Shown one piece after another: positions 1 through 32,746 of a stretch of DNA of 32,746 bases (within the stretch, counting starts at the first letter, position 1; the number at the start of each line of letters is the position of its first letter). Source of the stretch: Zunongwangia sp. ESRF-bin46 (GTDB lineage Bacteria; Bacteroidota; Bacteroidia; Flavobacteriales; Flavobacteriaceae). The notes beneath the pieces were generated by a model. The model made no database searches and was not told where the DNA came from. It worked only from the letters and a program-made list of their open reading frames with translations. The position numbers and the translations under genes are program-made. Location of the stretch: positions 1 through 32,746 of the forward strand of contig NTLF01000006.1 in NCBI GenBank assembly GCA_002631855.1, given 5' to 3'.

Positions 1-1740
1 TTGTTCATTAAGTCAACATTCTCAAGTGTCAATACATTTCCAGCAACTGAATTATCTTCAATTGCACCACCGGCTCTCATTGAAGTGTTTCCACTTAATT
101 CAGAATCGGTTACAGTTAAAGTACCTTGATTGTTCAAGATTCCACCACCTGATCCAGATGCGCCGTCAGCAATATTGTTGCTTACGGTTGCATTCATTAC
201 GGATAGCGTTCCACCTTCGTTGAAGATTCCACCACCACCTTGATCGGCATCGGCTCCACTGGCTGTGTTTGCATCAACAGTTGTTCCGTCGATTGTCATT
301 ATTCCAGCTCCGTTCCAGTAGGCTCCACCTTCAGCAGAAGCAGTGTTTCCACTTGCAGTTCCACCTGTAATGTTTGAGTCACCAGGACCAGTTATATGCA
401 GTCCACCACCGTTACCTGGTGCAGACGCAGTGCTGTTGTTCATTAAGTCAACATTCTCAAGTGTCAATACATTTCCAGCAACTGAATTATCTTCAATTGC
501 ACCACCGGCTCTCATGGAAGTGTTTCCACTCAATTCAGAATCGGTTACAGTTAAAGTACCTTGATTGTTCAAGATTCCACCACCTGATCCAGATGCGCCG
601 TCAGCAATATTATTACTGATTGTTGCATTTAAGACTGACAGTGTTCCTCCTTCGTTGAAGATTCCACCACCACCTTGATCGGCGTCGGCTCCGCTAGCTG
701 TATTTGCGTCAACAGTTGTTCCGTCGATTGTCATAATTCCAGCTCCGTTCCAGTACGCTCCACCTTCAGCAGAAGCAGTGTTCCCACTTGCCGTTCCACC
801 TGTGATGCTTGAGTCTCCAGGACCTGTTATATGTAGTCCACCACCATTTCCTGGTGCAGATGCAGTTGCGTTGTTCATTAAATCAACATTCTCAAGTGTC
901 AATACATTTCCAGCGATTGAATTATCTTCAATTGCACCACCGGCTCTCATTGAAGTGTTTCCACTTAATTCAGAATCGGTTACAGTTAAAGTACCTTGAT
1001 TGTTCAAGATTCCACCACCTGATCCAGATGCGCCATCAGCAACATTGTTACTTACGGTTGCATTCAGTACGGATAGCGTTCCACCTTCGTTGAAGATTCC
1101 ACCACCACCTTGATCGGCATCAGCTCCACTGGCTGTGTTTGCATCAACAGTTGTTCCGTCGATTGTCATAATTCCAGCTCCGTTCCAGTACGCTCCACCT
1201 TCAGCAGACGCAGTGTTCCCACTTGCCGTTCCACCTGTGATGTTTGAGTCACCAGGACCAGTTATGTGCAGTCCACCACCGTTACCCGGTGCAGATGCAG
1301 TTGCGTTGTTCATTAAGTCAACATTCGTCAACGTTAACAAGCCTCCAGCAACTGAATTATCTTCAATCGCTCCACCAGCTCTCATTGAAGTGTTTCCACT
1401 CAATTCAGAATCGGTTACAGTAAGTGCTCCTTGATTGTTCAAGATTCCACCACCAGAACCAGATGCGCCATCAGCAACATTATTACTTACGGTTGCATTC
1501 AGTACAGATAGCGTTCCACCTTCGTTGAAGATTCCTCCTCCGCCTTGATCGGCATCGGCTCCACTGGCTGTGTTTGCGTCAATAGTTGTTCCATCAACTG
1601 TCATTTCACCAGATCCATTCCAAAGACCACCACCTTCGGCAGTTGCAACGTTTCCGTTTACTGTTCCGTTGGTTATCATAGCAGTACCAGGACCTGTTAT
1701 ATGTAGTCCACCACCATTACCCGGTGCGCTTCCTACTTCA
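1..1740 (-). repeat. near-identical 435-bp tandem repeats inside the giant gene
   Basis: The marker TTGTTCATTAAG recurs at 1, 436, 871 and 1306 (one copy with a single change), and the next, diverged, equivalent starts at 1741. The period is therefore exactly 435 bp (145 codons). The units differ by only scattered bases, mostly third positions. They are far more alike than the upstream copies, so this part has been recently duplicated or homogenised. The array continues past the left edge. Confidence 0.9.
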
Positions 1741-19794: not shown

Positions 19795-19854
19795 GTACAT
19801 CTAACGTACACCTCGTAGTGATATTAAAGTATAAAGGTGTACAAAAGTACATCT
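19795..19854. promoter_or_regulatory. GTACAYCT repeats before the integrase gene
   Basis: GTACATCT (19795-19802), GTACACCT (19806-19813), an inverted AGGTGTAC (19835-19842) and GTACATCT (19847-19854) lie within 60 bp and end 2 bp before the integrase ATG. Such clustered direct and inverted octamers suit integrase/excisionase arm-type sites or a repressor operator. Confidence 0.5.
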
Positions 19855-19856
19855 TT

Positions 19857-20990
19857 ATGAAAATTACACTAAAAAAGAAAAAACTTAAAAGCAACCGTCA
19901 AAGTTTATATATTGAATATTATAAAGGGTCTACAACTACTCCAGAAGGAAAACGTAAGCATCTAAGAGATTTCGAATACTTGGACCTCTACATTATCTTA
20001 AAAGCAAAGACTACTAAAGAAAAACAAGACAATAAGGAAACTTTGGAATTAGCTGAAAATATCTTATCAATCAGAAAAGCTGAACATTTACAGGGGAAAT
20101 ATCAAATTAGAAATACCAAAAGGAAAAAAATTAGATTTCTGGATTATTATGATAAGCTAAAAGAAGCCCGCTACGAAAGTAAAGGCAATTATGATAATTG
20201 GGATGCAGCTGGTATACATCTCAATAACTATTGCCCTATTAATTTAACATTTGAAGAAGTCGATGAAAATTTCATTAAAGGATATCGAAAATATTTAGAC
20301 ACAGAAGCAAAAACTAAAGGAGGTACTCCCTTATCCCAAAATACTAAATATACTTACTTCAATAAATTTCGAGCTTGTCTAAAAAAAGCTTTTGAAGACA
20401 ATTATCTAGACACTAATCTTAGAAAACATGCTAAAGCTTTTAAAATGGGCGAATCCCAAAGAGAGTATCTGACTTTCGATGAAGTGCAAGCATTAAGTAA
20501 TGCCAAATGTAAGTATGATATTTTAAAGAGAGCTTTCTTGTTCAGCTGTGTATCAGGTCTTAGGTGGAGTGATATCAACTCGTTAACTTGGGGTGATGTT
20601 AGAGATGAGAATCAAGGCAGTAGAATTATATTTAGACAACAAAAAACAGATGGGTTAGAATATTTGGACATCTCTGTACAAGCAAGAGAACTTCTAAAAG
20701 GGAGGAAGAATAATTCGGATCGTGTTTTTACGGGATTAAAGTACGGCGCACATTTCAATGCAGAAATATTACGCTGGTGTATGCGTGCTGGTATCACGAA
20801 ACATATCACGTTTCATAGTGCTAGACATACCAACGCAGTCTTATTATTAGAGAATGGTGCTGACATCTACACTGTTTCCAAACGCCTTGGCCATCGTGAG
20901 CTTAGAACGACTGAAATATACACAAAGATTATTGACAAGAAAATGAAAGAGGCTTCTGAGTTGATACCAAAATTGAATCTAAGCTTATGA
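19857..20990 (+). CDS. int: tyrosine recombinase (site-specific integrase), Bacteroidetes type
   Basis: The 377 residues start at ATG 19857. A GTG at 19818 would add 13 residues across the octamer repeats and is less likely. The N-terminal Arm-type domain (SNRQSLYIEYYKG) is followed by a SAM-like core-binding domain (about 95-195) and a catalytic domain. Catalytic residues seen are R in SGLRWSD, K in QQKTDG, HxxR in HSARH, H in LGHREL and the nucleophile Y in TTEIYTK. It presumably integrates and excises the element beginning at mnmE. It lacks an obvious IntI-specific insertion and is not an integron integrase on this evidence. Its stop overlaps the next ATG by 4 bp. Confidence 0.93.
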   Translation: MKITLKKKKLKSNRQSLYIEYYKGSTTTPEGKRKHLRDFEYLDLYIILKAKTTKEKQDNKETLELAENILSIRKAEHLQGKYQIRNTKRKKIRFLDYYDKLKEARYESKGNYDNWDAAGIHLNNYCPINLTFEEVDENFIKGYRKYLDTEAKTKGGTPLSQNTKYTYFNKFRACLKKAFEDNYLDTNLRKHAKAFKMGESQREYLTFDEVQALSNAKCKYDILKRAFLFSCVSGLRWSDINSLTWGDVRDENQGSRIIFRQQKTDGLEYLDISVQARELLKGRKNNSDRVFTGLKYGAHFNAEILRWCMRAGITKHITFHSARHTNAVLLLENGADIYTVSKRLGHRELRTTEIYTKIIDKKMKEASELIPKLNLSL

Positions 20991-22033
20991 TTAAGAATAT
21001 AAAACAAACCGAAGCTTACTATAAATTCATTGGTGAATTAAAAAAAGTCCAAATAACTAATAAAACAGAGAATTCTAGGCTATTAAAACAGGTAATTAAT
21101 CTTTTGGAACTACATAGACATGAATTTTATAAAAATTGTCTCTCATATGAATCGATAGATTTATACCAAAAAACACCTAAGTATATATCTGACAATGAAG
21201 AAAATATACATCGACATCTTCATCAAAACCTAATTAATTATATCACAGAATTTATTGAGCCTGTTCTAACTAGTCATCTTAAGTACATTTTGGGTAATAT
21301 TAAAATTACCTCGGTGTTCTCTCCTGACACTGAAAACCTCTCCTTTATATCAAGCTGTGTCGAAAAGTTACTTAGCCATCTAGTTTTCGATATCTATAGC
21401 CCTCATTATTTTCGTACTGGTCTAGAGCCTGAAGATTTAGTTGAATTATATCTAAAGAAATTACTTGGACATATTCGTAATGATATTGGCTCGATTGAAA
21501 CCATAGAGATAGAAACATTAACTAATAGGCTTGTTGTTATCAAGAGTAAACATGAATGTTTTAAATATTTGACACCCTTCATAGCGGAACTTAATGAAAT
21601 TTCAGACTATTCTTCAAAATTTCAAACCACATATAAACAGGATGATGAGCCGCCCGAACTTGATAATAATATAGGCGATTTATCAAATCGAAAAATTGAA
21701 AAATTAATAGCTATTCTCTCCAAATTCATATATCGACCGACTGAAGCTAATCTTGAAAGTTTGTTGAAAAGTAAAATTGATAACATTCAAAATCCCATAA
21801 CAGTAAAAGTTTACAATCATTTTGCTTTTGCTTTGATTGTTTTAGCTCAAGACAAAGTGATTGACAGAGCCACTATTGATATCTTTATAAAAAATAAATT
21901 TTTGCTAAGTAAAAAAGGACAAACAACCGATGTTAAAGATTTTCAAACTGCAGAATCGAATTTCAAAAAATGGAATAAAAAGGACAAATATAAGAATATC
22001 AAAAATTCTATTATTTCTATTTTGAAAGAATAA
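20987..22033 (+). CDS. unrecognised 348-residue protein of the integrated element
   Basis: No family recognised. The protein is mostly helical and charged (RLLKQVINLLELHRHEFYK at the start, SNRKIEKLIAILSKF in the middle, FKKWNKKDKYKNIKNS at the end), with no signal peptide or membrane segment. It overlaps the integrase gene by ATGA, indicating translational coupling and a role linked to the recombinase or element control. The last 30 residues include a 20-bp sequence that is repeated just downstream. Confidence 0.75.
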   Translation: MIKNIKQTEAYYKFIGELKKVQITNKTENSRLLKQVINLLELHRHEFYKNCLSYESIDLYQKTPKYISDNEENIHRHLHQNLINYITEFIEPVLTSHLKYILGNIKITSVFSPDTENLSFISSCVEKLLSHLVFDIYSPHYFRTGLEPEDLVELYLKKLLGHIRNDIGSIETIEIETLTNRLVVIKSKHECFKYLTPFIAELNEISDYSSKFQTTYKQDDEPPELDNNIGDLSNRKIEKLIAILSKFIYRPTEANLESLLKSKIDNIQNPITVKVYNHFAFALIVLAQDKVIDRATIDIFIKNKFLLSKKGQTTDVKDFQTAESNFKKWNKKDKYKNIKNSIISILKE

Positions 22034-22085
22034 AAACCTGTTAATCAGTTTCTTAAGATCAATCGAATTCTATTATTTCTATTTT
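22004..22085 (+). repeat. 20-bp direct repeat across the 3' end of the 348-residue gene
   Basis: AATTCTATTATTTCTATTTT occurs at 22004-22023 (coding for the C-terminal IISIL) and again exactly at 22066-22085, 62 bp apart. This could be a small duplication or a scar of past rearrangement. Confidence 0.7.
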
Positions 22086-22120
22086 AAAAACTACATTACT
22101 TTCTTCTACCAATATTTGCC

Positions 22121-22152
22121 TTTGTTAACAAACAAAAACAAAGCGCTTTGTT
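22121..22152. promoter_or_regulatory. paired palindromes before the HTH gene
   Basis: TTTGTTAACAAA (22121-22132, 12-bp perfect palindrome) and AACAAAGCGCTTTGTT (22137-22152, 16-bp perfect palindrome) share the AACAAA/TTTGTT half-site. They end 23 bp before the HTH gene start. They look like operators for a dimeric repressor, plausibly autoregulatory. Confidence 0.5.
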
Positions 22153-22175
22153 CAATAACTTAAAAATCTAAAGTA

Positions 22176-22460
22176 ATGAACATATTAAAAATAGAAGAAC
22201 GATTAGATCGGATTGAAAAACTTTTAATCGCAAACAAAAAGGTATTAACTTTTGACGAAGCCTGTGACTATACAGGTATATCTAGAAGCTATTTCTATAA
22301 GTTAACTTCTAAAAATATTTTGCCCTATAGCAAACCAAATGGTAAAATAATCTTTTTTTCTAAAGAGAAGCTTGATGAATGGTTATTACGAAATGAACAG
22401 AAATCAAAGAATGATCTAAAAGACAAAGCTCTAGATTATACTCTTAAAAATAAGAGATAA
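22176..22460 (+). CDS. excisionase-like helix-turn-helix DNA-binding protein
   Basis: This 94-residue protein has an N-terminal coiled segment (ILKIEERLDRIEKLLIA), then a MerR/Xis-type winged HTH: LTFDEACDYTGISRSYFYKLTSKNILPYSKPNGKIIFFSKEKLDEWL. Proteins like this in Bacteroidetes mobile elements act as recombination directionality factors or regulators. It precedes the primase-helicase gene by one base, and palindromes lie in its leader. Confidence 0.85.
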   Translation: MNILKIEERLDRIEKLLIANKKVLTFDEACDYTGISRSYFYKLTSKNILPYSKPNGKIIFFSKEKLDEWLLRNEQKSKNDLKDKALDYTLKNKR

Positions 22461-22461
22461 G

Positions 22462-23673
22462 ATGGAAGATGAATTAGAATACTTCAGAATAGGTACATCT
22501 TATTACAAAATTAACGAAAAGCCACTTATTTCCGGTGAGACAACCAAAGTCTTGGTTCGTTGGCGAAAAGAAACAATTATTGAAGATTTTGGTAAAGCAT
22601 TCTTACGGGATGTTCCAAAACTTGACGGTTTTTGTTGTATACCCAACCATACCAACTATGAACAGTTTGTCAACAACTTCTATAACAAATACCATGAACT
22701 ACCTCATAAACCAAGCAAAATAGGAGAAATCAAAAACTCCATATACTTTGTTGAACATATTTTTGGCGAACAAAAAGAATTGGGACTGGACTACTTAAAA
22801 CTTCTTTTTCTTAGACCCACGCAGACACTTCCAATTCTCTGTTTGGTAAGTCAAGAGCGAGGAACAGGTAAAAGTACTTTTATTCATTGGCTTAAAGCAA
22901 TTTTCGGTCATAATATGACCTATATCAAAGGTGACAGCTTTAGTTCTCAATTTAATTCAGATTGGGCTTCTAAAACTATTATTGCAATGGACGAGGTTTT
23001 CTTTGACAAGAAAGAAATCACAGAACGACTTAAATACCTTTCTACAACCGACAAGGACAAGGTTGAAGCCAAGGGTAAAGACCGCGAAGAAATTGAGTTT
23101 TTCGGAAAGTTTATCCTATGTAGCAACAATGAGGAAAATTTTATAGTAATCGATTCAGATGAAATACGATTCTGGGTAAGAAAAATTAGATCGCTTAAAA
23201 ATGAAGACACTGAGTTTTTATCAAAGCTTAAAAAAGAGATACCAGCGTTTTTACAATATCTAATGGATAGAGAGTTTTCACGTCCTAAAACCACAAGGAT
23301 GTGGTTTTCAGCTGATGAAATAAAAACTAAAGCTCTTAGAAAAGTAGTTTGGCTAAACAATAATGAAATTGAACGAGAAATGGTCTTATGTCTTTATGAG
23401 ATTTTCGACGTTGAGAATTATAACTCATTAAAAGCAACACCACAGGATTTAGTCGCAATCATCAAAAAGATGAGAAGCAAAAACTTTATGACTAATAATA
23501 TCCGAAAAGTCCTAAAAAAGAAATGGAACTTAGATCCATCTTCAAATTCAAATTCTTATAGAGGGTTTGAATATACATCTTATGGAGAGTTCATCGAAAT
23601 AGACCGAAAAGGACGCTTCTATGAAATTCCTAGAAGACTAATCGCAAATATTTTTGATGAAATGATGATGTAG
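22462..23673 (+). CDS. primase-helicase family ATPase (DUF5906-like)
   Basis: The 403-residue protein has a superfamily 3-like helicase core. Walker A is SQERGTGKST near residue 140. The Walker B-like IIAMDEVFF lies near 175, and a sensor-like ILCSNNEENF lies near 215 followed by an Arg-rich DEIRFWVRK. The C-terminal half looks like a winged-helix extension. Its length is that of the helicase alone, without a fused primase-polymerase, and a separate TOPRIM primase follows at 23871. It probably unwinds the excised element during replication. The gene ends in TGATGA repeats that continue into the intergenic cluster. Confidence 0.82.
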   Translation: MEDELEYFRIGTSYYKINEKPLISGETTKVLVRWRKETIIEDFGKAFLRDVPKLDGFCCIPNHTNYEQFVNNFYNKYHELPHKPSKIGEIKNSIYFVEHIFGEQKELGLDYLKLLFLRPTQTLPILCLVSQERGTGKSTFIHWLKAIFGHNMTYIKGDSFSSQFNSDWASKTIIAMDEVFFDKKEITERLKYLSTTDKDKVEAKGKDREEIEFFGKFILCSNNEENFIVIDSDEIRFWVRKIRSLKNEDTEFLSKLKKEIPAFLQYLMDREFSRPKTTRMWFSADEIKTKALRKVVWLNNNEIEREMVLCLYEIFDVENYNSLKATPQDLVAIIKKMRSKNFMTNNIRKVLKKKWNLDPSSNSNSYRGFEYTSYGEFIEIDRKGRFYEIPRRLIANIFDEMMM

Positions 23674-23847
23674 TCTCGTAATTAATTGATAAACAAATTA
23701 TTATACTGTCGTCAAAACTATCATCAAAGTATCATCATTTTAAAAATAATGGCGGTATTACATCACTTTGATGATTGATGAAAAAATGATGACACTTGAA
23801 ACATTAATAAAATCAATACTTAACAAAGCATTGTCATCAATTCATCA
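23655..23847. repeat. iteron-like TGATGA/TCATCA cluster, candidate replication origin or operator
   Basis: TGATGA occurs at 23655, 23663, 23769, 23776 and 23787, and TCATCA at 23721, 23732, 23834 and 23842. ATCATCAAAGT (23720-23730) and ACTTTGATGAT (23765-23775) form a perfect 11-bp inverted repeat. The cluster lies in an AT-rich gap exactly between the helicase and the primase genes, a usual place for the origin of such elements. Confidence 0.6.
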
Positions 23848-23870
23848 AGACACCATTAAACAACACACCA

Positions 23871-24737
23871 ATGAATAAGGAAGTAATGAATTGCGAAAAA
23901 GCTCGTAATATTTCTATTGTGCAAGCACTCGGAAAATTAGGGTATTTTCCTCAAAGAGAAACAAAAAAAGAAGCTTGGTTTTTGAGTCCTTTTAGGTCAG
24001 AAACCCAAGCCTCTTTCAAAGTTTCGAAAAGTAAAAACAAATGGTATGACTTCGGAATTGGAAAAGGAGGAAATACTATTGACTTGATTGTAAGATTAAA
24101 AAATTACTCAGTCAAGGAAACACTTTTATTTTTATCTGCCAGTACCAATAACTCTTTTTCTTTTCAACAGCATCAAAACAACGATGAAAGTAAAACTAGC
24201 TATTCTATTAAAAAGGTAAAGTCATTAGATAATCCGGCATTGCTAAACTATCTAGAAATTAGAAAAATCAATCTAATAGTGGCTAAGAAGTATTGTCAGG
24301 AAGTCTACTATAAAATAAACAATAAAAGTTATTTCGCTATAGCTTTTGAAAACGATCTTGGTGGATTTGAAATCAGGAATAAATACTTTAAAGGAGGCCT
24401 TAAAAGCAAAGCAACTACTCATTTGAAAAATGAATCCAATGTTTTACTTGTATTCGAGGGGTTTATCGACTTTCTATCTTTGTTGACTTTGAATGAGGAG
24501 AAGTTCCAAAAATTTGACCACTTAATTTTAAACTCTCTTTCTTTTGTGGATTCAAAATTAAAGCTATTGACTAATTATAAGGAGATTGAACTTTACTTAG
24601 ATAATGATAAAGCTGGAAAAAAAGCAAGCAAAAAAATCCAAAAGAAATTTAATTTTTCAAAAGATAAGAGTCAATCTTATAGTGGTTATAAAGACTTAAA
24701 TGAATTTTTAAAAGATAAGGATAAAAAAGTCTATTAG
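23871..24737 (+). CDS. TOPRIM-domain primase of the mobile element
   Basis: The 288-residue protein has an N-terminal DnaG zinc-finger-like fold (about 10-90) with WFLSPFRSETQASFKV and WYDFGIGKGGNTIDLI. This part matches the CHC2 region in pattern but lacks the usual zinc-binding Cys/His set. A TOPRIM domain follows, with VFEGFIDFLSL near 200 (catalytic Glu), LYLDNDKAGKKA near 243 (DxD-type acidic pair) and DLNEFL at the end. Such proteins prime replication of plasmids and integrative elements in Bacteroidetes. An alternative start at the second Met, codon 6, is possible. Confidence 0.85.
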   Translation: MNKEVMNCEKARNISIVQALGKLGYFPQRETKKEAWFLSPFRSETQASFKVSKSKNKWYDFGIGKGGNTIDLIVRLKNYSVKETLLFLSASTNNSFSFQQHQNNDESKTSYSIKKVKSLDNPALLNYLEIRKINLIVAKKYCQEVYYKINNKSYFAIAFENDLGGFEIRNKYFKGGLKSKATTHLKNESNVLLVFEGFIDFLSLLTLNEEKFQKFDHLILNSLSFVDSKLKLLTNYKEIELYLDNDKAGKKASKKIQKKFNFSKDKSQSYSGYKDLNEFLKDKDKKVY

Positions 24738-24747
24738 GTGGGTTATT

Positions 24748-24800
24748 CGAGTAGTGTGCTTGTGGCCACAAATAGAATTTGAGACCACAACCACAACTCG
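24748..24800. other. candidate oriT with imperfect inverted repeat
   Basis: CGAGTAGTGTGCTTGTGG (24748-24765) pairs imperfectly with CCACAACCACAACTCG (24785-24800). Inside is the perfect palindrome TTGTGGCCACAA (24760-24771). The site lies just upstream of the mobC-relaxase pair, the normal place for oriT. The nick site cannot be assigned, though the GC-richer segment at 24797-24820 is a candidate. Confidence 0.55.
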
Positions 24801-24837
24801 CTTTTGACTCCCGATTGGTCGCAAAAGAAAAACAAAA

Positions 24838-25137
24838 ATGAACAAAACAGTTACTATAAAACTTAGGATGACTTTACCAGAAAAAAAACGTCTGGAGTAT
24901 AAAGCTAAAGCAGCTGGATTGACCCTAAGTGAATTCGTGCGAAGATGTATTGAACATCGTATCATCAAAGAGCGCTTGACTGAAGAGGAAATCAAAACCT
25001 TGAACCTACTTAAAACGGATAATGTCCGTTGGCAGAAAATAGGCAATATGTTCAGTAAACGGGACCCAAGATTACGAGACGAAGTCGTTGCCTTAAAAGA
25101 TGAATTCAAAAAAATTATTATAGAAAATTTCAGATGA
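24838..25137 (+). CDS. mobC: MobC-like relaxosome accessory protein
   Basis: This 99-residue protein has a ribbon-helix-helix start (TVTIKLRMTLPEKKRLEYKAKAAGLTLSEFVRRC), followed by a helical tail with LTEEEIKTLNLL and RWQKIGNMF. The pattern fits plasmid mobilization MobC proteins, which bind oriT and assist the relaxase. Its stop codon overlaps the relaxase ATG (ATGATGG). Confidence 0.85.
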   Translation: MNKTVTIKLRMTLPEKKRLEYKAKAAGLTLSEFVRRCIEHRIIKERLTEEEIKTLNLLKTDNVRWQKIGNMFSKRDPRLRDEVVALKDEFKKIIIENFR

Positions 25138-26063
25138 TGGCAATTGCAAAATGTATCGGTCATACTAAAAACTCACTGGGCTATGGATGGAATGAAGAAA
25201 AAGATGCTGTAGTAGTGTACCGTAATAATATAATGGGTGAAGATCCAGGAGAAATAAACCAAGAGTTCAAATTGATCCAAGATCAAAATTACCAATGCCC
25301 CAACAACACTATTAGCGTGGTTTTAAGTCTTTCCAGTAAGAATACTGTAGAAGTTGATGACTCAAAATGGGAGGCCATAATTGATGAATATATGCAAGAA
25401 ATGAAATTGGAAGACCATCAAGCGATTGCTTTCAAGCATCAAGATAAAAAGCATTTACACTGCCATCTGTATATAAATAGAGTTAGGTATGATGGCAAGG
25501 CTTACAGCAGTTCTTACATTGGGTATAAAAGCGGATTGGTTGCGGATAAGATTTCTGAAAAACATGGACTTGCCAGACCTATGCAAATGAAAAAGGAAAG
25601 AGAAAAAAAGACCAAGAATATACGAAATGAAATTTATAGAATACACAGCAAGGTAGTTACTTCCCTAAAACAGAAAAACTATGAAAATTACATACACGCT
25701 ATGGCAACCCAGAATGTTACCGTGAAACCTGTTGAAAGCAAGAATGGTCATCTTAATGGGTTTCGGTATTACTACCAAAACCAGAATTTTAAGGCAAGTG
25801 CCATACACCGAAGTATGAGTTTGGCTAATCTACATAGGACTCTTTATGATTCTCAGGATGGATGGCCAGAAATAAAAGACACGCAACCTATGGTTAGTGA
25901 ACATTCAAATACAGTCAATAACAACTATGAGTTTATTCGGCTTCTGGACCACATTTGCAAAATGCTTAGAAAATCTCAATCTATCGACAATTCAGCAGAT
26001 ATTGAAAATGAAGAGTTCAGAAGAAGAAAAAAGAGAAAAAAACGAAGGGGAAGAGGAATTTAA
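25134..26063 (+). CDS. mobA: relaxase / mobilization nuclease (MOBP-like)
   Basis: The 309-residue relaxase nicks oriT and pilots the DNA strand during transfer. The metal-binding HUH signature is clear in KHLHCHLYINRV (His107, His109, His111, Asn115). Tyr17 or Tyr29 near the N-terminus could be the nucleophile. Conserved downstream features include ISEKHGLARPM and the FRYYYQNQNFKASAIHRS segment. The C-terminus is very basic (RRKKRKKRRGRG). No coupling protein or type IV secretion genes are present in the window, so the element would be mobilizable rather than self-transmissible as far as seen. Confidence 0.92.
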   Translation: MMAIAKCIGHTKNSLGYGWNEEKDAVVVYRNNIMGEDPGEINQEFKLIQDQNYQCPNNTISVVLSLSSKNTVEVDDSKWEAIIDEYMQEMKLEDHQAIAFKHQDKKHLHCHLYINRVRYDGKAYSSSYIGYKSGLVADKISEKHGLARPMQMKKEREKKTKNIRNEIYRIHSKVVTSLKQKNYENYIHAMATQNVTVKPVESKNGHLNGFRYYYQNQNFKASAIHRSMSLANLHRTLYDSQDGWPEIKDTQPMVSEHSNTVNNNYEFIRLLDHICKMLRKSQSIDNSADIENEEFRRRKKRKKRRGRGI

Positions 26064-26075
26064 AAATCAACAAAA

Positions 26076-26681
26076 ATGGCAAAAAGCAAAAACGTAATCA
26101 ACAGTGATATTATCATTGCAGATTTATTTGAACTCAAAAATAAAGTGGAGACAATCGAAAAAAACTCTGCTAAAATTGATTCCTATATCAATGAACATTT
26201 GAAGCAAATACCAATTATAGCAGAAAACAATTATAATAGCACGCAGAAATTGGTGAGACTTATGAAAGACAATAGTTGCGTTTTAGATAAACAGTTCAGT
26301 AATTTCAAAAAATTACAAGAAACAACCACAGCAAATCATAAAATCAGCACCGAATCAATTAACAAGATAGATGACAATCACAAGAGTTTAATAGCTGCCT
26401 TTACAAAAGCAGAGCTATTTGAAACATCCAAAAGCCTTAAGAATTTGAAGCATTTCTTCTTTTACGGTATTTCTATTAACTCTCTTATAATCTTAATCAC
26501 TTGTGTCATTCAGATATATTTTTTTAAATCTACAATTACTAAGTTATCAGGGACTCATTACCAAGATGGCTACTCAACAGGTCGGAGTGAAATTATCAAT
26601 AAAATGAACAAGTTTTTAGATGAGCATTCCGAAGTCAAAGACAAATTTTACGAATGGAATACGCAAAATAATGAAAAATAG
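26076..26681 (+). CDS. coiled-coil single-pass membrane protein of the mobilization region
   Basis: The 201 residues contain a long helical, coiled-coil-like N-terminal half (LKNKVETIEKNSAKIDSYINEH, HKSLIAAFTKAELF). One membrane helix follows at about 128-150 (FFFYGISINSLIILITCVIQIYFF), then a short charged tail. No family is recognised. Its place between relaxase and ParA, with 12 bp and overlap respectively, suggests a mobilization accessory role, perhaps tethering the relaxosome or ParA to the membrane. That role is inference. Confidence 0.75.
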   Translation: MAKSKNVINSDIIIADLFELKNKVETIEKNSAKIDSYINEHLKQIPIIAENNYNSTQKLVRLMKDNSCVLDKQFSNFKKLQETTTANHKISTESINKIDDNHKSLIAAFTKAELFETSKSLKNLKHFFFYGISINSLIILITCVIQIYFFKSTITKLSGTHYQDGYSTGRSEIINKMNKFLDEHSEVKDKFYEWNTQNNEK

Positions 26682-27270
26682 TAAATACATTTTACTGATG
26701 CATCAAAAAGGCGGTGTCGGCAAGTCAACCCTTACTCTCAATTTAGCCGTAAACTTTGCTAAAGCTGTCAATGTAGGGATTGTTGATATGGATCCACAGG
26801 GTAGCCTTACCCAATTGAGCACTGTAATTCAGGATTTAGACATCCTTACTTTAGAAGGTAAGCCTGAAAAAATCCAAAAGTTGCAATATGATTATATATT
26901 TATAGATACACCCCCTTATCTTACCAATAACCTTAAATATCTTATCAATCTTGCAGACTTGATAGTGGTTCCAACAAAAGCGGGCATAATGGACCTGATG
27001 GCCATCCAAGGGACAATGAGTCTTATAAAGTCTCAAAAGGCATTAGATAAATCTCTTGTGGTGCTTAATATGATTAAACCCAACACGACCCTTACGCTCG
27101 ACATACAGACCGAGCTTAGAAAGATTGACAAGCTTTCCTTAGCCAAAACACATATAAGCGATCTCGTATCATTTACAAGGTCTGCTTTTACCAAGGGCAT
27201 ACCAGAAAATGTGAAAGCGAAACAACAGATTGAAAGCCTTTCCACCGAAATACTATATAGATTTCTATAA
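26671..27270 (+). CDS. parA: ParA-family partition ATPase
   Basis: I start at ATG 26671 (MKNSKYILLMHQKGGVGKST), giving 199 residues. The longer frame from 26620 lies in the preceding gene. The deviant Walker A KGGVGKST near residue 17, DMDPQGSLTQLS near 42 and the IDTPP motif near 78 are clear. The size fits small ParA proteins that lack a DNA-binding N-terminus and work with a ribbon-helix-helix partner. A matching small gene follows 12 bp later. The probable job is stable inheritance of the element, or positioning its excised form. Confidence 0.92.
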   Translation: MKNSKYILLMHQKGGVGKSTLTLNLAVNFAKAVNVGIVDMDPQGSLTQLSTVIQDLDILTLEGKPEKIQKLQYDYIFIDTPPYLTNNLKYLINLADLIVVPTKAGIMDLMAIQGTMSLIKSQKALDKSLVVLNMIKPNTTLTLDIQTELRKIDKLSLAKTHISDLVSFTRSAFTKGIPENVKAKQQIESLSTEILYRFL

Positions 27271-27282
27271 TTATATAACCCT

Positions 27283-27513
27283 ATGAGCCATAAAAAATTA
27301 GAACTTTCAGAACTATTAAAAAAGGTTAACAGTTCAACCAGAAAGCCGCTTCAAAAAGTAACGCCTTTAAAACAAGAAAAAGATGAAACGCAGTTTTCTT
27401 TTTGGATGGAAAGCAATCTTTTAAAACAACTTAAGATGAGAGCACTTGAGGAAGATACCTCTATCAAAAATATTATAAACAAAAGTATCGCATCATATAT
27501 CAGCAATAAATGA
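27283..27513 (+). CDS. small ribbon-helix-helix protein, probable ParA partner
   Basis: The 76 residues begin with a flexible charged part (SHKKLELSELLKKVNSSTRKP). A ribbon-helix-helix like segment follows: TQFSFWMESNLLKQLKMRALEEDTSIKNIINKSIASYI. The layout (disordered N-terminus, RHH C-terminus) is that of ParG-type centromere binders. Position directly after parA supports it. Confidence 0.75.
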   Translation: MSHKKLELSELLKKVNSSTRKPLQKVTPLKQEKDETQFSFWMESNLLKQLKMRALEEDTSIKNIINKSIASYISNK

Positions 27514-27586
27514 TTAATTTTATATTTCTAAATTCAACTATGAAATAAAATTTTGAATACATACTCTTAGCGTTTAGCTACTAAAG

Positions 27587-27697
27587 GTTTAAGAAAATCG
27601 CCAGTTTTTAAAATCGACCTATTAGCAGTTTAGACGTTCACGTTCCGGCGTGGGCTGTCTTATGTGGTCGATAGGTGTCTGGCGATACCTCTTAAAC
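27587..27697. ncRNA. 111-nt nested hairpin, structured RNA or DNA site of unknown type
   Basis: Four coaxial stems nest perfectly. GTTTAAGA (27587-27594) pairs with TCTTAAAC (27690-27697). ATCGCCAG (27597-27604) pairs with CTGGCGAT (27679-27686). ATCGACC (27613-27619) pairs with GGTCGAT (27666-27672). AGAC-GTTCACG (27632-27642) pairs with CGTGGGC-T-GTCT (27649-27660) around loop TTCCGG. It lies in the 258-bp gap between the ParA partner and the next gene. It could be a small RNA, a single-strand origin, a centromere or a recombination site. The ends do not carry attC core heptamers. Strand of transcription, if any, is not known. Confidence 0.5.
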
Positions 27698-27771
27698 TCG
27701 TAAGTACAGTTCCACGCTTTTTAATTGTTAATATATGGTTTAATCTATTAATTCACTAAAAATTGCCAGAC

Positions 27772-28347
27772 ATGAAAATAGTACTTTACATCTTAAAATT
27801 TCAAAATGAGAATATTTTAAAAATAGGAATAACTACTAACATCTCTTTTAGAATATCTTGTATAGAAAAATCTTCAGGCTTTATTGTTGACCATTATAAA
27901 TCTATGATAATTACGAATCCAATAAAGAAAAATATTCGTCTATTAGAAAAAAACCTACTCAACATTACAACAGATTTTCAGTACAAATTTGAAGAAAAGA
28001 AATACTTCGGAGGAATAAACGAATTTAGAAAGGGTAATTGTGTTAACCTAATGCTTCAATTTATAAAAGATCAAAAAGATTACGGTTTTAAATATAAAAT
28101 CTATACCGGAATTGATGTTTGTGGACAGTATACCCACACATTACCAAAAGCCTACTTTCCTATTTTTTATCCTGTAAAAGGTATTTCTAGCATTTTAAAA
28201 AGTGATATAAAAAAATATTGTAAAGCAAATGGCTGCGATTATTATGATTTTTTGAATAAGTCACTATACGATTCAATGAAATCTCTGGGTTATGGAAGAG
28301 AAACCGAAATGCCAATAAAAGGATATAAGAATTTTTTTAAAGTATAA
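27772..28347 (+). CDS. possible GIY-YIG-like (T5orf172-type) protein
   Basis: I start at ATG 27772 (MKIVLYILKFQNEN). The upstream TTG at 27763 is less likely. The 191-residue protein opens with YILKFQNENILKIGITTNISFRISCIEK. This resembles the GIY-YIG/T5orf172 nuclease start: two short strands, then KIGIT, then an Arg on the following helix. The rest (FEEKKYFGGINEFR, a mid segment with YTGIDVCGQY) is not recognised. The match is partial and nuclease function is not proven. It converges on the minus-strand gene at 28368, 20 bp away. Confidence 0.6.
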   Translation: MKIVLYILKFQNENILKIGITTNISFRISCIEKSSGFIVDHYKSMIITNPIKKNIRLLEKNLLNITTDFQYKFEEKKYFGGINEFRKGNCVNLMLQFIKDQKDYGFKYKIYTGIDVCGQYTHTLPKAYFPIFYPVKGISSILKSDIKKYCKANGCDYYDFLNKSLYDSMKSLGYGRETEMPIKGYKNFFKV

Positions 28348-29118: not shown

Positions 29119-29251
29119 ATTTTACGGTCTCGTATAATCGTCAGTTACGGGTTAATAGGCGTTAATTTACGGTTTAGCACTGACGTTAGCAATTCCGAGT
29201 GGATTCGGACGTAGTCGAATCCGCCGTAATTGCGGTTATACATTGTTGGGC
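29119..29251 (-). repeat. attC-like site A (133 bp), distal end of the visible array
   Basis: Read on the minus strand it starts with the R''-like box GCCCAAC (29251-29245) directly after the lipoprotein gene stop. The arms GTATAATCGTCAGTTACGG and CCGTAATTGCGGTTATAC pair almost fully. An inner hairpin GGATTCG-GACGTAGT-CGAATCC is perfect. The terminal R'-like box is GTAAAAT, one base off GTTRRRY, so this end is degenerate. It is about 90% identical to site D. Confidence 0.75.
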
Positions 29252-29255
29252 ACAG

Positions 29256-30275
29256 TTATTTTCCATTGATTCTATGCAAAACATTAAAGTCTTTATGATA
29301 ATTTGAAAACTTGATATCGATTAAATTTAAATTATTCTTGTTTATGTCATAAATTAAAGATAAAACTTGTTTTTCATTGTCAATCACTACCAAATAGTCT
29401 TGCACTAAAAGTAATCGATTAAAATAGTCAAAATGAGTATTAAGGAACCTACTGTCCTTTGATATTTCGCCTATTTTCTCAAATTTCTTTTTAAAGAAAG
29501 TTTTATGGGAATCAGAATATTGAGTTAAAGAAATAAATTCATCAATGTTTTTTTCATTTATTGATTTTATAACTTTTCTGTCTATTTGACTTTTTTCTAT
29601 TTCATAATCTAAGGTTGGATAAATAAACCCTTGTCCTTTAATTTTTTGCGGTGTCATAACAATTAAAAAAGCTAAATTAAGGTCTTTTTTAGAAAAATAA
29701 AATGTTATATCTCCAGTAATATGTTCAGATTTATTGTACCTGTAATATTTTTTAGTGACATTATTTAACTTGAAACTTTGCAGAGGTCCAAATAAATATT
29801 TTAATTTTTTAAATGTTTCACTGTAGTCGTTATCTAATAAATTATCCAACTCATTAAAATTATTATTAACTAATAAATTACAACTTTCGATAAATAATTT
29901 TATATCTGCATTATTACCATTTTGATCTTTTATAAGTTCTTTATAATCTAATTTGCCGTTATGATATATAAAATCTAATGATAGCAGCTTAATTCCATTT
30001 TCATATTTTTTGTATTCAAGCGTGTCACCGTCTATAAAGGTACGAAGGTAAGTACCATCCATTTTTCCATCTTTGAATTCAATTCTAACTTTATCGTTGT
30101 TAGAGATACTGACAAATTCTCCACTATACGGTTTTTTTGTTTTTTTGTTAAATACCTTAATTGGGCTATTAAAAGAATACTTGTAATAAAGATCGACATT
30201 TGCAGTTTGAGAGTTACAGCTATCGAATAGTAGTAAACTCAATGCAAGTAAAATGAAGTTTTTTAATTTTTTCAT
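29256..30275 (-). CDS. cassette gene 4: putative lipoprotein with MORN-like strand
   Basis: The protein has 339 residues. The first 20 form a lipoprotein-type signal (MKKLKNFILLALSLLLFDSC, Cys20, with a non-ideal Asp in the lipobox). Residues 38-75 hold a repeat-like KPYSGEFVSISNNDKVRIEF, then GKMDGTYLRTF, similar to the MORN-like toxin/antitoxin-associated or structural repeats of Bacteroidetes lipoproteins. The remainder is unrecognised. The ATG lies 31 bp inside the cassette start, and the stop codon is 4 bp from the R'' box of site A. The function is unknown. Confidence 0.75.
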   Translation of the reverse strand: MKKLKNFILLALSLLLFDSCNSQTANVDLYYKYSFNSPIKVFNKKTKKPYSGEFVSISNNDKVRIEFKDGKMDGTYLRTFIDGDTLEYKKYENGIKLLSLDFIYHNGKLDYKELIKDQNGNNADIKLFIESCNLLVNNNFNELDNLLDNDYSETFKKLKYLFGPLQSFKLNNVTKKYYRYNKSEHITGDITFYFSKKDLNLAFLIVMTPQKIKGQGFIYPTLDYEIEKSQIDRKVIKSINEKNIDEFISLTQYSDSHKTFFKKKFEKIGEISKDSRFLNTHFDYFNRLLLVQDYLVVIDNEKQVLSLIYDINKNNLNLIDIKFSNYHKDFNVLHRINGK

Positions 30276-30305
30276 TATTTAATTTTAATTAAGTCTACTA
30301 ATTGT

Positions 30306-30501
30306 GCCCAACGGGTTTGTGTATGAGTAGTGCGGGAAGGGAGTTTCCTTAATTTTCAAGCCAACACTAGCCAAATCTACTGTTTTTCTTTTTATCTTTT
30401 TTGTTCAAAAAGCCAAATCAGAAGATTTGGCGGTCGTACCAAATATACCGAAACTTTCGATTAAACAATATCACCCGTATTACTTATACACGTTGTTGGC
30501 A
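30306..30501 (-). repeat. attC-like site B (196 bp)
   Basis: On the minus strand it begins with the R''-like box TGCCAAC (30501-30495) just past the SMEK-gene stop and ends with GTTGGGC (30312-30306), a full match to GTTRRRY. The arm GTGTATGAGTAGTGCGGG (plus strand, left) pairs with CCCGTATTACTTATACAC (right), with three differences that are all G-T compatible. An inner GCCAAATC/GATTTGGC stem is perfect. Confidence 0.8.
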
Positions 30502-30511
30502 ATAGTATTTT

Positions 30512-31588
30512 TTAATCAATTAATTTCAATTTTTCGTCAAAGATTATTCTTTTTTTCTTTGATTTAAAAGAGCCTATCTCACCATATAAAATCTCTTCAT
30601 AAGGCATTCCGTCTTTTGCATATGTAACGTATAAACTAGGTAGTCCATCATATGGGTCAACTTCCATATCAAAATCAATTATAAATTCATATGGTATTCT
30701 CAAGAAATTTACACAACCTTTAAATTCAGATTGTGGATAATCGGCTTTATTTTCAAAATAATCGATTGGTTTCCAAGTTCCATCTTTATTAATAACAACT
30801 TTTGAATTTCCAGAAACAAATTCAATTCCGTTCTCATAGAAATCCCAAAATTCAGCTTTAAACCACGAGCTTATATTATCGTCAGAATCCATTTCAGATA
30901 ATGGCCATTGACAATCATTAATTGATTTTATTAAAATTTTAGAATATTTAAATTTAATCCAGGGTTCATAAATAGAATACTCTGACTCATTATAATCTAA
31001 ATTTCTTAAAAAATTCTCTTCGAGTTTTCTTTTTAAGTTAAAGTTTCTTTTAATTTTTCTATGATTTACTACTGGAACATTGCTCTTTATGTTATTTTCC
31101 TGTTTTAGAATTTTTGATATTTTTTTTAATTGACTTATTGGTTTACTCCTAATTAAATTTAAAATATCTCGAAAATCAAGTATTTGACTTTTATAGTCAA
31201 ATAAAATCTCTTCATTAGCTTTTAAAGAGTCATATTTTTTTTGTTTTTTTCCAAGTATTACAATAAATAATTCAGAATATTTAATGTGCAGATTACTTTC
31301 AATAAACTTATCTATTGTTTTTTGAATTTTGTTGCTTGATTTGGTGCTTGTAACTTGAATGCAAACAGAGTTTCTTAAATCACCTAAATCTATTGCTGGA
31401 AAGTTAACATTAATAGCATTTAAATTTATAAGATTGTAATTAAATATGTTATTGAATAACTCACAAATACTATCTTCAGATAGATTATGAGCATCAAAAA
31501 GATTCATTGAACTAAGATTTTGTAACCTTAATTCCCACAAGGCAAACTCGTCGGAAATAATTTTTAATTCAATCTCTCTGTTACTCAT
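30512..31588 (-). CDS. cassette gene 3: SMEK-domain-containing protein
   Basis: The protein has 358 residues. The N-terminal 125 match the SMEK domain: EFALWELRLQNLSSMNLFD, LFNNIFNYNLINLNAIN, NFPAIDLGDLRN, CIQVTSTKSSNKIQKTIDKF and LFIVILGKKQKKY. The IDLGD...IQVTS arrangement resembles a nuclease-like core. In known proteins the SMEK domain is the N-terminal module of varied, often defence-like proteins, though its activity is not established. Residues 180-358 are beta-rich and unrecognised. The ATG is 12 bp from the cassette start box. The stop lies 11 bp before the R'' box of site B. Confidence 0.72.
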   Translation of the reverse strand: MSNREIELKIISDEFALWELRLQNLSSMNLFDAHNLSEDSICELFNNIFNYNLINLNAINVNFPAIDLGDLRNSVCIQVTSTKSSNKIQKTIDKFIESNLHIKYSELFIVILGKKQKKYDSLKANEEILFDYKSQILDFRDILNLIRSKPISQLKKISKILKQENNIKSNVPVVNHRKIKRNFNLKRKLEENFLRNLDYNESEYSIYEPWIKFKYSKILIKSINDCQWPLSEMDSDDNISSWFKAEFWDFYENGIEFVSGNSKVVINKDGTWKPIDYFENKADYPQSEFKGCVNFLRIPYEFIIDFDMEVDPYDGLPSLYVTYAKDGMPYEEILYGEIGSFKSKKKRIIFDEKLKLID

Positions 31589-31600
31589 TTTTTATATTAT

Positions 31601-31779
31601 TGCCAACGTGTATGTATAAAAATCAGTAACGGTGGGAGTTTGCGGATGCGGCTGAGTTTATTAATGCAAAGGCGAGCAAACTCCTGTACTGACCTTTTGG
31701 TTAAGCCACTAAGATAGCAAAACGGCTGGGATTTCCGAAGGGGAAATTCAGCCGTTATTGTTTTTATACAGTGTTGGCA
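31601..31779 (-). repeat. attC-like site C (179 bp)
   Basis: On the minus strand it runs from R''-like TGCCAAC (31779-31773) to the R'-like GTTGGCA (31607-31601). The plus-strand left arm GTATAAAAATCAGTAACGG pairs with CCGTTATTGTTTTTATAC. Inner perfect stems are GGAGTTTGC/GCAAACTCC and ATTTCC-GAAG-GGGAAAT. The gap 31780-31943 between it and the next ORF shows no gene. Confidence 0.8.
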
Positions 31780-31943
31780 TTAGTATTTATTCAAGTACAC
31801 ATTGCAGTGATTCATTTTAGATTTTTTTTGTTTTCTCTTCAGCTAGTTTGCCTCATAGTATTAGAGACTAAATGGTCTAGAAATAAAATTAATTCCATTT
31901 TTTCTACCAAAAATTGATGTAATTTAATCAGGGTTTATGATAA

Positions 31944-32141
31944 TTAAATAAAATATCGTATTAATACAAATAGCCCGATTAAGGTGATAAATAAAGCAAA
32001 AATGGATTTGATTAAAAATTGTTTCTGAACCCAATTTGTTCTGTCAGAATGAAGTTTATTTTTTTTCGGATAGAGAATAAGAAACCCAACAATTCCAAGA
32101 ACTATAAATATAATTCCTAATTCTATTTCGTCAATATCCAT
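31944..32141 (-). CDS. cassette gene 2: small two-helix membrane protein
   Basis: The 65-residue protein has two hydrophobic segments (IELGIIFIVLGIVGFLILY, about 7-25, and IKSIFALFITLIGLFVLIRYF, about 44-64). A basic loop (KKNKLHSDRTNWVQKQF) joins them. No family recognised. The ATG lies 18 bp from the cassette start box GTTGGCA. The stop is 164 bp from the R'' box of site C, a longer 3' leader than in other cassettes. Confidence 0.65.
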   Translation of the reverse strand: MDIDEIELGIIFIVLGIVGFLILYPKKNKLHSDRTNWVQKQFLIKSIFALFITLIGLFVLIRYFI

Positions 32142-32158
32142 TTTTTCGTTAATATTAA

Positions 32159-32292
32159 TGCCAACGGTCTCGTATAACCGTCAGTTACGGGTTAAATTAG
32201 CGTTTATTTTCGGTTTGACACTGGCTTTAGCAATTCCGAGTGGATTCGGACGTAGTCGAATCCGCCGTAATTGCGGTTATACATTGTTACCC
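32159..32292 (-). repeat. attC-like site D (134 bp)
   Basis: On the minus strand it runs from GGGTAAC (32292-32286) to GTTGGCA (32165-32159). The arms GTATAACCGTCAGTTACGG and CCGTAATTGCGGTTATAC pair almost fully, with inner hairpin GGATTCG-CGAATCC. It is nearly the same as site A apart from an extra base and scattered differences. The two ends differ because the outer boxes belong to different cassettes. Confidence 0.8.
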
Positions 32293-32301
32293 AACGTTTT
32301 T

Positions 32302-32727
32302 TTATATCCAAGTTATAACAGTTATTATTCCAACTAAAATCAGTCCGACAAGTAATATTCCAATCCCAATACAACTAACTTTGAAAATTTTATCTTTCCA
32401 AGTTTCTTTATATTCAGGAAACTTTTTGTTCGGTTCTTTTTTCTTATTTGTTAATTCAACATAATCAAAAAAGAACTCGCCATCTTCGTCAATCCAATCA
32501 ATGTCAAGTCCAACTGAGGCAATTTTATTTTCGTTGTATTCAAGATTTTCAGATTTAATCCCTGCTTTTAGTAATTCAGCAGCATAGAGTTCGAGTCCTT
32601 TCCTATTGGCTTTTATGCAACTTTCGTCTGGTCCTCCGCCGTATTGATAAAATCCGAAATAAGCTTTGTCTTTTTCGTTCCGATTTTCAAGTTCAGTTAT
32701 TAATTTTTTTAGTTCCTCGTCGGTCAT
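32302..32727 (-). CDS. cassette gene 1: unrecognised protein with C-terminal membrane helix
   Basis: The 141 residues have an acidic, polar N-terminal part (YFGFYQYGGGPDESCIKANR, GLDIDWIDEDGEFFFDYVEL), then a C-terminal hydrophobic helix of about 25 residues (VSCIGIGILLVGLILVGIITVITW, about 116-140). It is presumably tail-anchored or single-pass. No family recognised. The ATG lies 11 bp from the cassette start box GTTACCC at 32738-32744. The stop lies 10 bp before the R'' box of site D. Confidence 0.7.
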   Translation of the reverse strand: MTDEELKKLITELENRNEKDKAYFGFYQYGGGPDESCIKANRKGLELYAAELLKAGIKSENLEYNENKIASVGLDIDWIDEDGEFFFDYVELTNKKKEPNKKFPEYKETWKDKIFKVSCIGIGILLVGLILVGIITVITWI

Positions 32728-32734
32728 TTCAAAT

Positions 32735-32744
32735 GTTGGGTAAC
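32735..32744 (-). other. end of a further attC-like site (E) at the window edge
   Basis: GTTACCCAAC on the minus strand (32744-32735) repeats, in inverted orientation, the GTTGGGTAAC that follows cassette gene 1. It is the start box of cassette 1 and hence the R' end of an attC whose body is outside the window. Confidence 0.55.
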
Positions 32745-32746
32745 GT

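Follow-up and report, generated by a model that had tools for sequence, protein, structure and literature searches.

Anatomy of the array

The window analysed here is the whole of contig C6 (32,746 nt) of Zunongwangia sp. ESRF-bin46, a flavobacterium whose 3.33 Mb genome lies in 22 contigs, and its right end holds an array of gene cassettes resembling those of integrons. The array occupies positions 29123-32744 on the minus strand and comprises four units, each with a short leader, one main open reading frame (ORF) and a palindrome (Table 1); the GTT with which unit 1 starts at 32744 lies 2 nt inside the contig end. A sequence-only reading of this DNA had described these units and had taken palindromes 1 and 4 as one type, distinct from 2 and 3, and both observations hold: the palindromes span 126, 171, 188 and 125 nt from AAC to GTT, and those of units 1 and 4 are alike (86% over 114 nt). 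Each unit starts with GTT, six nucleotides and an A or C, and ends with a G or T, six nucleotides and AAC, and in all four bodies these own ends are complementary over 10 of 10 nt.

Hairpin 1 folds with a z-score of -4.2 on the strand opposite the ORFs and of -3.4 on the ORF strand, and it matches our covariance model for such sites, R1, at E 1.9e-22, being itself part of the set from which the model was built. Hairpin 3 is absent from the R1 matches in the genome, for which 150 of 2413 candidates were scored. Hairpin 4 terminates in ACCGTA instead of ACCGTT, the core elsewhere being GTT apart from one site in the genome with GCT; since it lacks the GTT core, it was taken as the far end of the array. 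Neither the Rfam gathering scan nor ARAGORN returned a match in the window, and terminators or repetitive extragenic palindromic (REP) elements with their REP-associated tyrosine transposases (RAYT) were considered for the palindromes and rejected. Among the ORF products, that of cassette 3 matches Aga_REase-PNTD in PADLOC, and that of cassette 4 has a lipoprotein-like N-terminus by reading.

Table 1. Coordinates of cassettes, attC-like hairpins and recombinase genes
Feature	Contig	Position	Strand	Description
Cassette 1 body	C6	32286..32744	minus	starts GTTACCCAAC, ends GTTGGGTAAC; ORF 32302-32727, 141 aa, no Pfam match; further copies: 96% identical in G159 (other genus), second copy at C20 right end
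attC-like hairpin 1	C6	32163..32288	minus	AAC...GTT, 126 nt, main type A
Cassette 2 body	C6	31773..32165	minus	starts GTTGGCATTA, ends TAATGCCAAC; ORF 31944-32141, 65 aa, membrane-like by reading
attC-like hairpin 2	C6	31605..31775	minus	171 nt; R1 match E 1.7e-8, outside model-building alignment
Cassette 3 body	C6	30495..31607	minus	starts GTTGGCAATA, ends TATTGCCAAC; ORF 30512-31588, 358 aa, SMEK-domain protein
attC-like hairpin 3	C6	30310..30497	minus	188 nt; identified by motif and palindromic ends
Cassette 4 body	C6	29245..30312	minus	starts GTTGGGCACA, ends TGTGCCCAAC; ORF 29256-30275, 339 aa, no Pfam match
attC-like hairpin 4	C6	29123..29247	minus	125 nt, last of the array; located by eye; R1 E 2.2e-22 (in model's own alignment)
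Tyrosine recombinase gene	C2	3859-5025	minus	388 aa; upstream of array, pointing along the cassettes
Recombinase remnant	C2 (L039)	5945-6133	plus	62 aa, C-terminal

Conservation of the hairpin

Alignment of 30 sites of roughly 120-128 nt (alignment A3) yielded a consensus with a 14-pair stem, the structure being derived from the same alignment. Its stem cells were paired in 96.4% of cases, as opposed to 72.6% in shuffled alignments and 17-38% when the stem was slid, and the stem covariation score of 0.578 (0.157 in shuffles) was attained in none of 500 shuffles. The same was true for the number of cells altered on both sides (92 vs 27.9), which represents fewer independent events than cells, as the aligned hairpins fall into a few related types. 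Pairs with changes on both sides numbered 10 of 14, slightly above the 8.0 of the shuffles (15 of 500 as high). The known attC sites are divided into R box, unpaired spacer, L box and extrahelical bases, and the A3 consensus has all of these: its R and L boxes are separated by unpaired spacers of 3 nt on one side and 6 nt on the other, and column 18 is an invariant unpaired A. By analogy, the parts of the hairpin thus correspond to those of attC. A chain of 13 sites in Rufibacter follows the same logic with an attC of only 52-55 nt, and a miniature attC of 53 nt also lies in the present genome (L040 on contig C20, 5718-5770).

Cassettes carry their own complement

Within the genome, 46 sites from six arrays delimit 40 bodies between neighbours. 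Of these sites, 41 stem from a motif scan blind to complementarity, whose longer output was sifted by eye while the flanks were visible, and five, the last of the window among them, were located by eye. Over the seven positions after GTT, the two ends of a body matched at 6.58 positions on average, 31 of 40 perfectly, as against 3.38 (one perfect) with the start of the next cassette and 2.64 (1.0% of 1560 perfect) for mismatched pairs; none of 20000 permutations reached the observed mean. Two poorly matching bodies were kept in the count, namely the first on C11 (1/7), due to a missed internal site at 1621-1744 (an R1 match), and the first on C18 (4/7), where a missed site is the likely cause as well. 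The freer test is provided by relatives, in which sites were placed by an nhmmer profile from alignment A3 (186 bodies, 26 loci): here, own ends matched at a mean of 6.15 positions (121 of 186 perfect), compared to 2.89 for the next cassette (2 of 186 perfect) and 2.66 for mismatched pairs (0.8% perfect).

The constant features of the cores are GTT/AAC and a purine following GTT, which was present in 186/186 starts of the relatives, with A or C at position 10 in 184 of them. The hexamers themselves are of 30 kinds among 40 units. The earlier suggestion that the core heptamers fit or nearly fit the integron patterns RYYYAAC and GTTRRRY did not withstand counting, as each pattern fits a single one of the four window sites and one of the 46 genome sites, and GTTRRRY fits 8 of the 186 starts in relatives. 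An unconstrained search for 9-nt end repeats gave 21 and 30 perfect pairs where shuffles had 3-17, and was clean only once an attC at the end was required. A GG-type core pattern (11 + 6 matches, 7 + 12 in the reversed control) turned out to be noise, because the cores are not canonical.

Own-end complementarity would be expected if each unit had once existed as a circle, its start there completing its own attC. When own start and own attC are joined in silico, the R stem has 9.3 pairs, compared to 4.3 for the arrayed arrangement, and with their own R' back in place 34 of 39 hairpins are more stable by over 0.5 kcal/mol; as the complementarity itself entails this gain, it does not count as further evidence.

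Cassettes recur as body plus attC

Exact recurrence was found between genome G101 and Winogradskyella ursingii, which share a 787-nt body and its 117-nt downstream attC at 100% identity. The identity extends from 1 nt left of the GTT to 5 nt into the next cassette, while the upstream attC (0.46) and both flanks (0.57 and 0.63) differ, the flanks being at the level of unrelated sequence. Likewise, cassette 1 of the window together with its attC is 96% identical in another genus (G159), where it lies within array L112; in total this cassette occurs in three contexts, each with a different next cassette. Whole-body matches were also seen for the pairs L089/L102, L113/L114 and L082/L089, with the downstream attC shared clearly, weakly and not at all, respectively. 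The underlying set of 25 cross-locus pairs is smaller than it appears: ten derive from one genome fetched twice (L114 = L131) and three are repeats through that double, L088/L103 lies within one genome, and the L094 pairs, L082/L086 and L106/L112 match over part of the body.

Body and attC thus recur at 96-100% identity in other genomes beside different neighbours, and, as judged from these comparisons, cassettes move as units of the two. This contradicts the outcome that the sequence-only reading had named as evidence against cassettes, namely that ORFs and palindromes do not move together.

The remainder of the array in this genome

Searched against the genome at E 1, the type-A palindrome gave 31 matches, and model R1 gave at least 60 at E 0.1 among the 150 scored of 2413 candidates; the latter cluster on contigs C20, C2, C11, C15, C18, C21 and C6. 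On C20 (21.5 kb), cassettes are arranged almost end to end. Overlaps at 100% identity (436 nt between C20 and C6, 1017 nt between C2 and C20) give the probable contig order C2 - C20 - C6 towards the window. On C2, 42 nt separate the stop codon of a tyrosine recombinase gene from the GTT of the first cassette, whose contents are a cytosine methyltransferase gene and a neighbouring ORF. The integrase that had been expected to the right of the window is therefore there in the form of this gene, reached via the overlaps with C20, but it is not an IntI (see below). A second array on C2 runs on the opposite strand (~6270-13.7k) behind the C-terminal remnant of a related recombinase, and the back-to-back arrangement suggests two divergent systems, one recombinase of which has decayed.

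The cassette of the 141-aa product has different next cassettes on C6 and at the right end of C20. Taken with a shared AraC-type cassette, it points to a block of ~21 kb with about two dozen cassettes that would be present in tandem or circular form. Single or few attC-like sites are furthermore scattered off the main array on C12, C14, C15, C18 and C21, and are possibly secondary-site integrations or remains of arrays. Palindromes spread over the genome without associated ORFs had been named as a finding that would speak against cassettes; this is seen in part, in that scattered palindromes do exist, a result at the level of the sites themselves. An array segment on C20 (L040, 3118-3315) is a 198-nt cassette with no obvious ORF.

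In 292 of 340 delimited bodies, the longest ORF has the same strand as the array. Among 43 cassette proteins, family counts, with ORFs assigned by reading, revealed a DRT2-type reverse transcriptase, a CAP12-type TIR effector and a cytosine (type II) methyltransferase among the cargo (L040 9604-11235, L040 14799-16235 and L039 2748-3728), as well as SUKH, Schlafen-AlbA and Cass2/GyrI domains.

Two further regions of the window deserve mention. Next to the array, positions 19818-28347 resemble an integrative mobilisable element, with a tyrosine integrase by Pfam and, by reading, ORFs for a helix-turn-helix protein, a ParA-like ATPase and primase-like and relaxase-like genes. At the other end (3-6458, minus strand), a giant repetitive protein with GNGGGLHI-type repeat segments runs off the contig, 2152 aa of it lying before the open end.

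A XerA-like recombinase lacking the IntI insertion

The recombinase carries a Phage_integrase domain (PF00589, E 9.7e-38), as do all 22 members of alignment A1, with invariant active-site residues R247, H336, R339, H362 and Y371. It scored 219.7 bits against NF040815 (XerA / integron integrase; cut-off 220) and 202 bits against TIGR02249 (IntI; cut-off 265), where the stretch between profile positions 180 and 243 stayed unmatched: the insertion of roughly 42 residues that forms the I2 helix of IntI is not present. In agreement with this, the GxRxxE and HxxRH motifs are 90-92 residues apart in those Bacteroidota proteins that allowed both to be read, as against 133-138 residues for nine IntIs; exceptions are L125 (96), L152, which was misread, and a few proteins with no match. 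By sequence, the solved structures closest to it are XerA (5hxy and 4a8e), followed by IntI4 (2a3v) in two pieces, and 5hxy is also the best Foldseek match.

In a tree of 78 rows, whose root and some deep forks are unsettled, the nine IntIs group in a single clade with a long stem (1.04, 100/100), to which none of the 34 array-linked recombinases belongs, and the genome's own two Xer proteins, taken from their tblastn matches, are set apart behind a 100/99 branch. The IntI model exceeded its cut-off in none of 198 family genomes, in a scan whose built-in controls gave no match either; in a separate positive control, it matched 9/9 genomes with IntI and 0/2 of Bacteroidota. The sequence-only reading had proposed to look for an intI with its extra domain, and what stands at this place has neither the insertion nor a position within the IntI clade.

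Outside the stretch that aligns with 5hxy and 4a8e, most aligned recombinases carry an N-terminal domain, and moderate evidence relates it to HARP, i.e. to domains like HARP or the XPB damage-recognition domain (DRD). HARP is a fold that binds branched DNA. Against PF07443 (HARP), L140 scored 26.2 bits (cut-off 25) as the only match among ten scanned, and at E 0.1 three of 23 domains matched; the flavobacterial domain was linked by hhalign (probability 98.8) to a set of ten that includes the HARP matches. The structure-modelled domain gave no direct HARP match, and in the structure comparison (VIA list) the unrelated folds eIF1 and YciH scored close to XPB.

Linkage of arrays to the recombinase and distribution

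A recombinase homologue at E 1e-60 is encoded in 94 of 199 family genomes, and attC-like sites occur in 173 of the 199 sampled. The arrangement is not rare in the family, whereas the sequence-only reading had noted that integrons are seldom reported in Bacteroidetes. R1 matches were found in 51 of 148 Bacteroidota genomes, 40 of the 51 outside the family and many with 1-3 sites only, and in none of 26 genomes of other phyla, nine of which carry IntI.

For the linkage, 40 loci were sampled from 109 listed matches outside the own genome (35 genomes), by rank and remaining contig, and chains were called at a cassette chain score of at least 18 with a strand-symmetric array finder, the orientation being taken separately from ORFs and the asymmetric profile; ten single-base shuffles of two loci reached at most 13.9. 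A chain lies downstream of the recombinase in 32 of 41 loci, own locus included, and of the nine others seven have less than 1 kb of contig, one has a truncated recombinase, and L095 (6 kb) is unexplained. In the relatives, 32 of 40 loci yielded profile hits, and all 252 of these share the strand of the recombinase and come after its stop; the position is biased by the choice of stretches (84 kb upstream, 464 kb downstream), the strand is not. The own locus L039 (9 hits) was left out, its right-hand array being the one behind the remnant, on the opposite strand. Because these flanks are uneven, a check of 80 named loci with even flanks (up to 10 kb per side) weighs more: 30 of 30 profile hits were downstream and on the same strand, coming from seven loci, and the other 73 gave none.

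The chain scan of these 80 loci, many of which are short of downstream contig, reached a score of at least 18 downstream in 15 and upstream in four (L121, L139, L144, L151). A downstream score of at least 30 was attained in eight, all Bacteroidota: Flavobacteriaceae S0862, Winogradskyella, Seonamhaeicola, Rufibacter, Algibacter, Flavobacterium aciduliphilum, Zunongwangia and a Bacteroidetes metagenome-assembled genome (MAG). None of 48 loci from other phyla, sorted by record title with one unassigned title omitted, reached 30, and two reached 19 and 22 (L140, L196). The first cassette after the recombinase stop was found by script in 26 of 41 loci and not in 15, with gaps of 26-128 nt and one of 576 nt; a palindrome before the first GTT was seen by eye and left uncounted.

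Three recombinases, those of L152, L153 and L154 (a Bacteroidetes MAG, Anaerophaga and Alkalitalea), measure 675-718 aa by the script's choice of start, and two of them have downstream chains with scores of 76 and 18.

A model for cassette exchange and its alternatives

We consider it highly probable that the end of the window is the distal end of an integron-type array, in which mostly single-gene cassettes with their own attC-like hairpins are excised as circles and reinserted by a dedicated tyrosine recombinase, whose gene immediately precedes the array and shares its orientation; this enzyme is XerA-like, free of I2 and in most aligned members equipped with a HARP/XPB-DRD-like N-terminal domain. 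By analogy with integrons, a cassette in the array, or one arriving on single-stranded DNA, would expose an attC strand that folds, and in the circle the cassette's own GTT-N6 would complete the R box; the substrate would accordingly be one attC strand folded as a hairpin with its R box restored. The recombinase would then bind the R and L boxes around the unpaired bases and exchange one strand at the GTT core, where crossover is presumed, with another attC or with the palindromic site after the recombinase gene. The palindrome ending ~5 nt before the first GTT is a candidate for the latter, i.e. for attI. Finally, the new cassette would enter beside the recombinase gene and be read in the same direction. 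The order of these steps, the strand and the core position are modelled on what integrons do, and the HARP-like domain may take the place of I2 in reading the hairpin.

The anatomy would also suit a canonical integron or a cluster of attC sites lacking an integrase (CALIN), whose cassettes were made by a true IntI and to which the XerA-like recombinase is a mere neighbour. This seems very improbable to us, given that the IntI model stays below its cut-off throughout the family yet finds all nine control genomes, that GTTRRRY fits so few starts, that R1 sites are missing from the 26 genomes of other phyla including those with IntI, and that the sites lie downstream of the XerA-like recombinase. 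Palindromic transposable repeats, such as miniature inverted-repeat transposable elements (MITEs) or REP, that inserted behind genes which do not themselves travel would account for the related palindromes scattered on several contigs. Transposon ends are fixed, however, and the hexamers here lack such a fixed terminal sequence, each matching instead the other end of its own unit; moreover, the identity between genomes spans body and downstream attC and stops at the core, and palindrome position and strand are tied to the recombinase, so that we give this explanation hardly any credence.

Gene modules moved by XerC/XerD at dif-like sites are known as pdif modules, and a chromosomal XerC/XerD pair acting on double-stranded sites might be invoked here too, as the recombinase is a relative of Xer and the sites have inverted arms. 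Yet the sites differ from dif sites of ~28 bp in being long hairpins whose stems covary and whose unpaired bases are conserved, those of one array share a single direction, and in the tree the linked recombinase is separated from the two Xer proteins of the genome; we therefore think such modules very unlikely. A closer competitor retains the same system but assumes recombination of double strands with a normal second-strand exchange, the hairpin serving as a terminator or as protection of the cassette end. It draws on the lack of the I2 helix, which in IntI accommodates folded single strands (as stated in passages of PMC4792948 and PMC7790495). Against it speak the outer hexamer, whose sequence is free while its complementarity is kept, and the covariation of the stem, both of which would be anticipated where a folded strand and not a sequence is recognised. 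Within the array, moreover, R' and R'' come from different cassettes and are unmatched, leaving no consistent second binding site in double-stranded form. On balance, this version appears unlikely, though less so than the other three, and we retain the exchange of folded single strands by the dedicated recombinase as our model.

The wide occurrence in the family suggests an overlooked gene-capture system. We go further, with only a slight inclination in favour, in proposing that Bacteroidota possess a second integron system that does without IntI and is common in Flavobacteriaceae, its Xer-type enzymes recombining folded single-stranded sites with a HARP-type junction-binding domain instead of I2 and reading the free hexamer only as structure. 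If true, this would explain part of the gene turnover in these bacteria, including that of the defence-type genes in the cargo.

Comparison with known systems

The system shares with sedentary chromosomal integrons the arrays of cassettes that mostly have a single ORF, face the same way and stand next to a tyrosine recombinase gene, the attC features of an R box, unpaired spacers of 3 and 6 nt, an L box, a conserved unpaired base and a variable top, the own-end complementarity, and defence genes among the cargo. In contrast to integrons, the recombinase belongs to a clade separate from IntI and has no I2 insertion, the R box consists of GTT and a hexamer of free sequence where integrons have GTTRRRY, the attI candidate lies 3' of the recombinase gene, and R1 sites were not found in the nine IntI genomes. 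As the integrase that defines integrons was looked for and another enzyme was found in its place, we do not class the system as an integron, despite its probable integron-like working. A partial parallel exists in Treponema, where, according to excerpts of PMC3607928, the integrase is transcribed towards attI in the cassette direction, so that there, too, the recombinase gene points at its site and cassettes; the Treponema enzyme is a true IntI, and the R' box given in that paper, GTTAGGT, fits GTTRRRY, unlike here.

In the literature, sections of PMC8618304 and PMC2426708 list the phylum Bacteroidetes, or its group, among the carriers of integrons or intI, and a survey with IntegronFinder (PMC9024848) mentions for Bacteroidetes earlier only In0 elements, i.e. 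integrases devoid of cassettes, and later one complete integron (Salinibacter). In searches of the open-access literature, most of them on integrons and cassettes and with preprints not covered, we found no description of the present IntI-less system, which is no proof of its absence in print. The 2008 survey selected its matches by the IntI extra domain (PMC2426708), and searches demanding this domain exclude the present system by design.

The catalytic domain resembles that of XerA and other Xer recombinases (NF040815; 5hxy, 4a8e). To our knowledge, Xer proteins are known for their work on dif and the chromosome and come with no cassette array. HARP (SMARCAL1, PDB 4o66) and the XPB damage-recognition domain reside in helicases, whereas here the HARP-like domain is fused to a recombinase, where its binding of branched DNA is putative. 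The I2 helix has been presented, in passages of PMC7790495 and PMC4792948, as unique to integron integrases, fitting them to folded single strands, and as the innovation behind integrons. Should the recombinase work as proposed, it would offer a natural test of whether I2 is needed in single-strand cassette recombination, and a Xer-type enzyme acting on attC-like hairpins would be a second solution to the recombination of folded strands.

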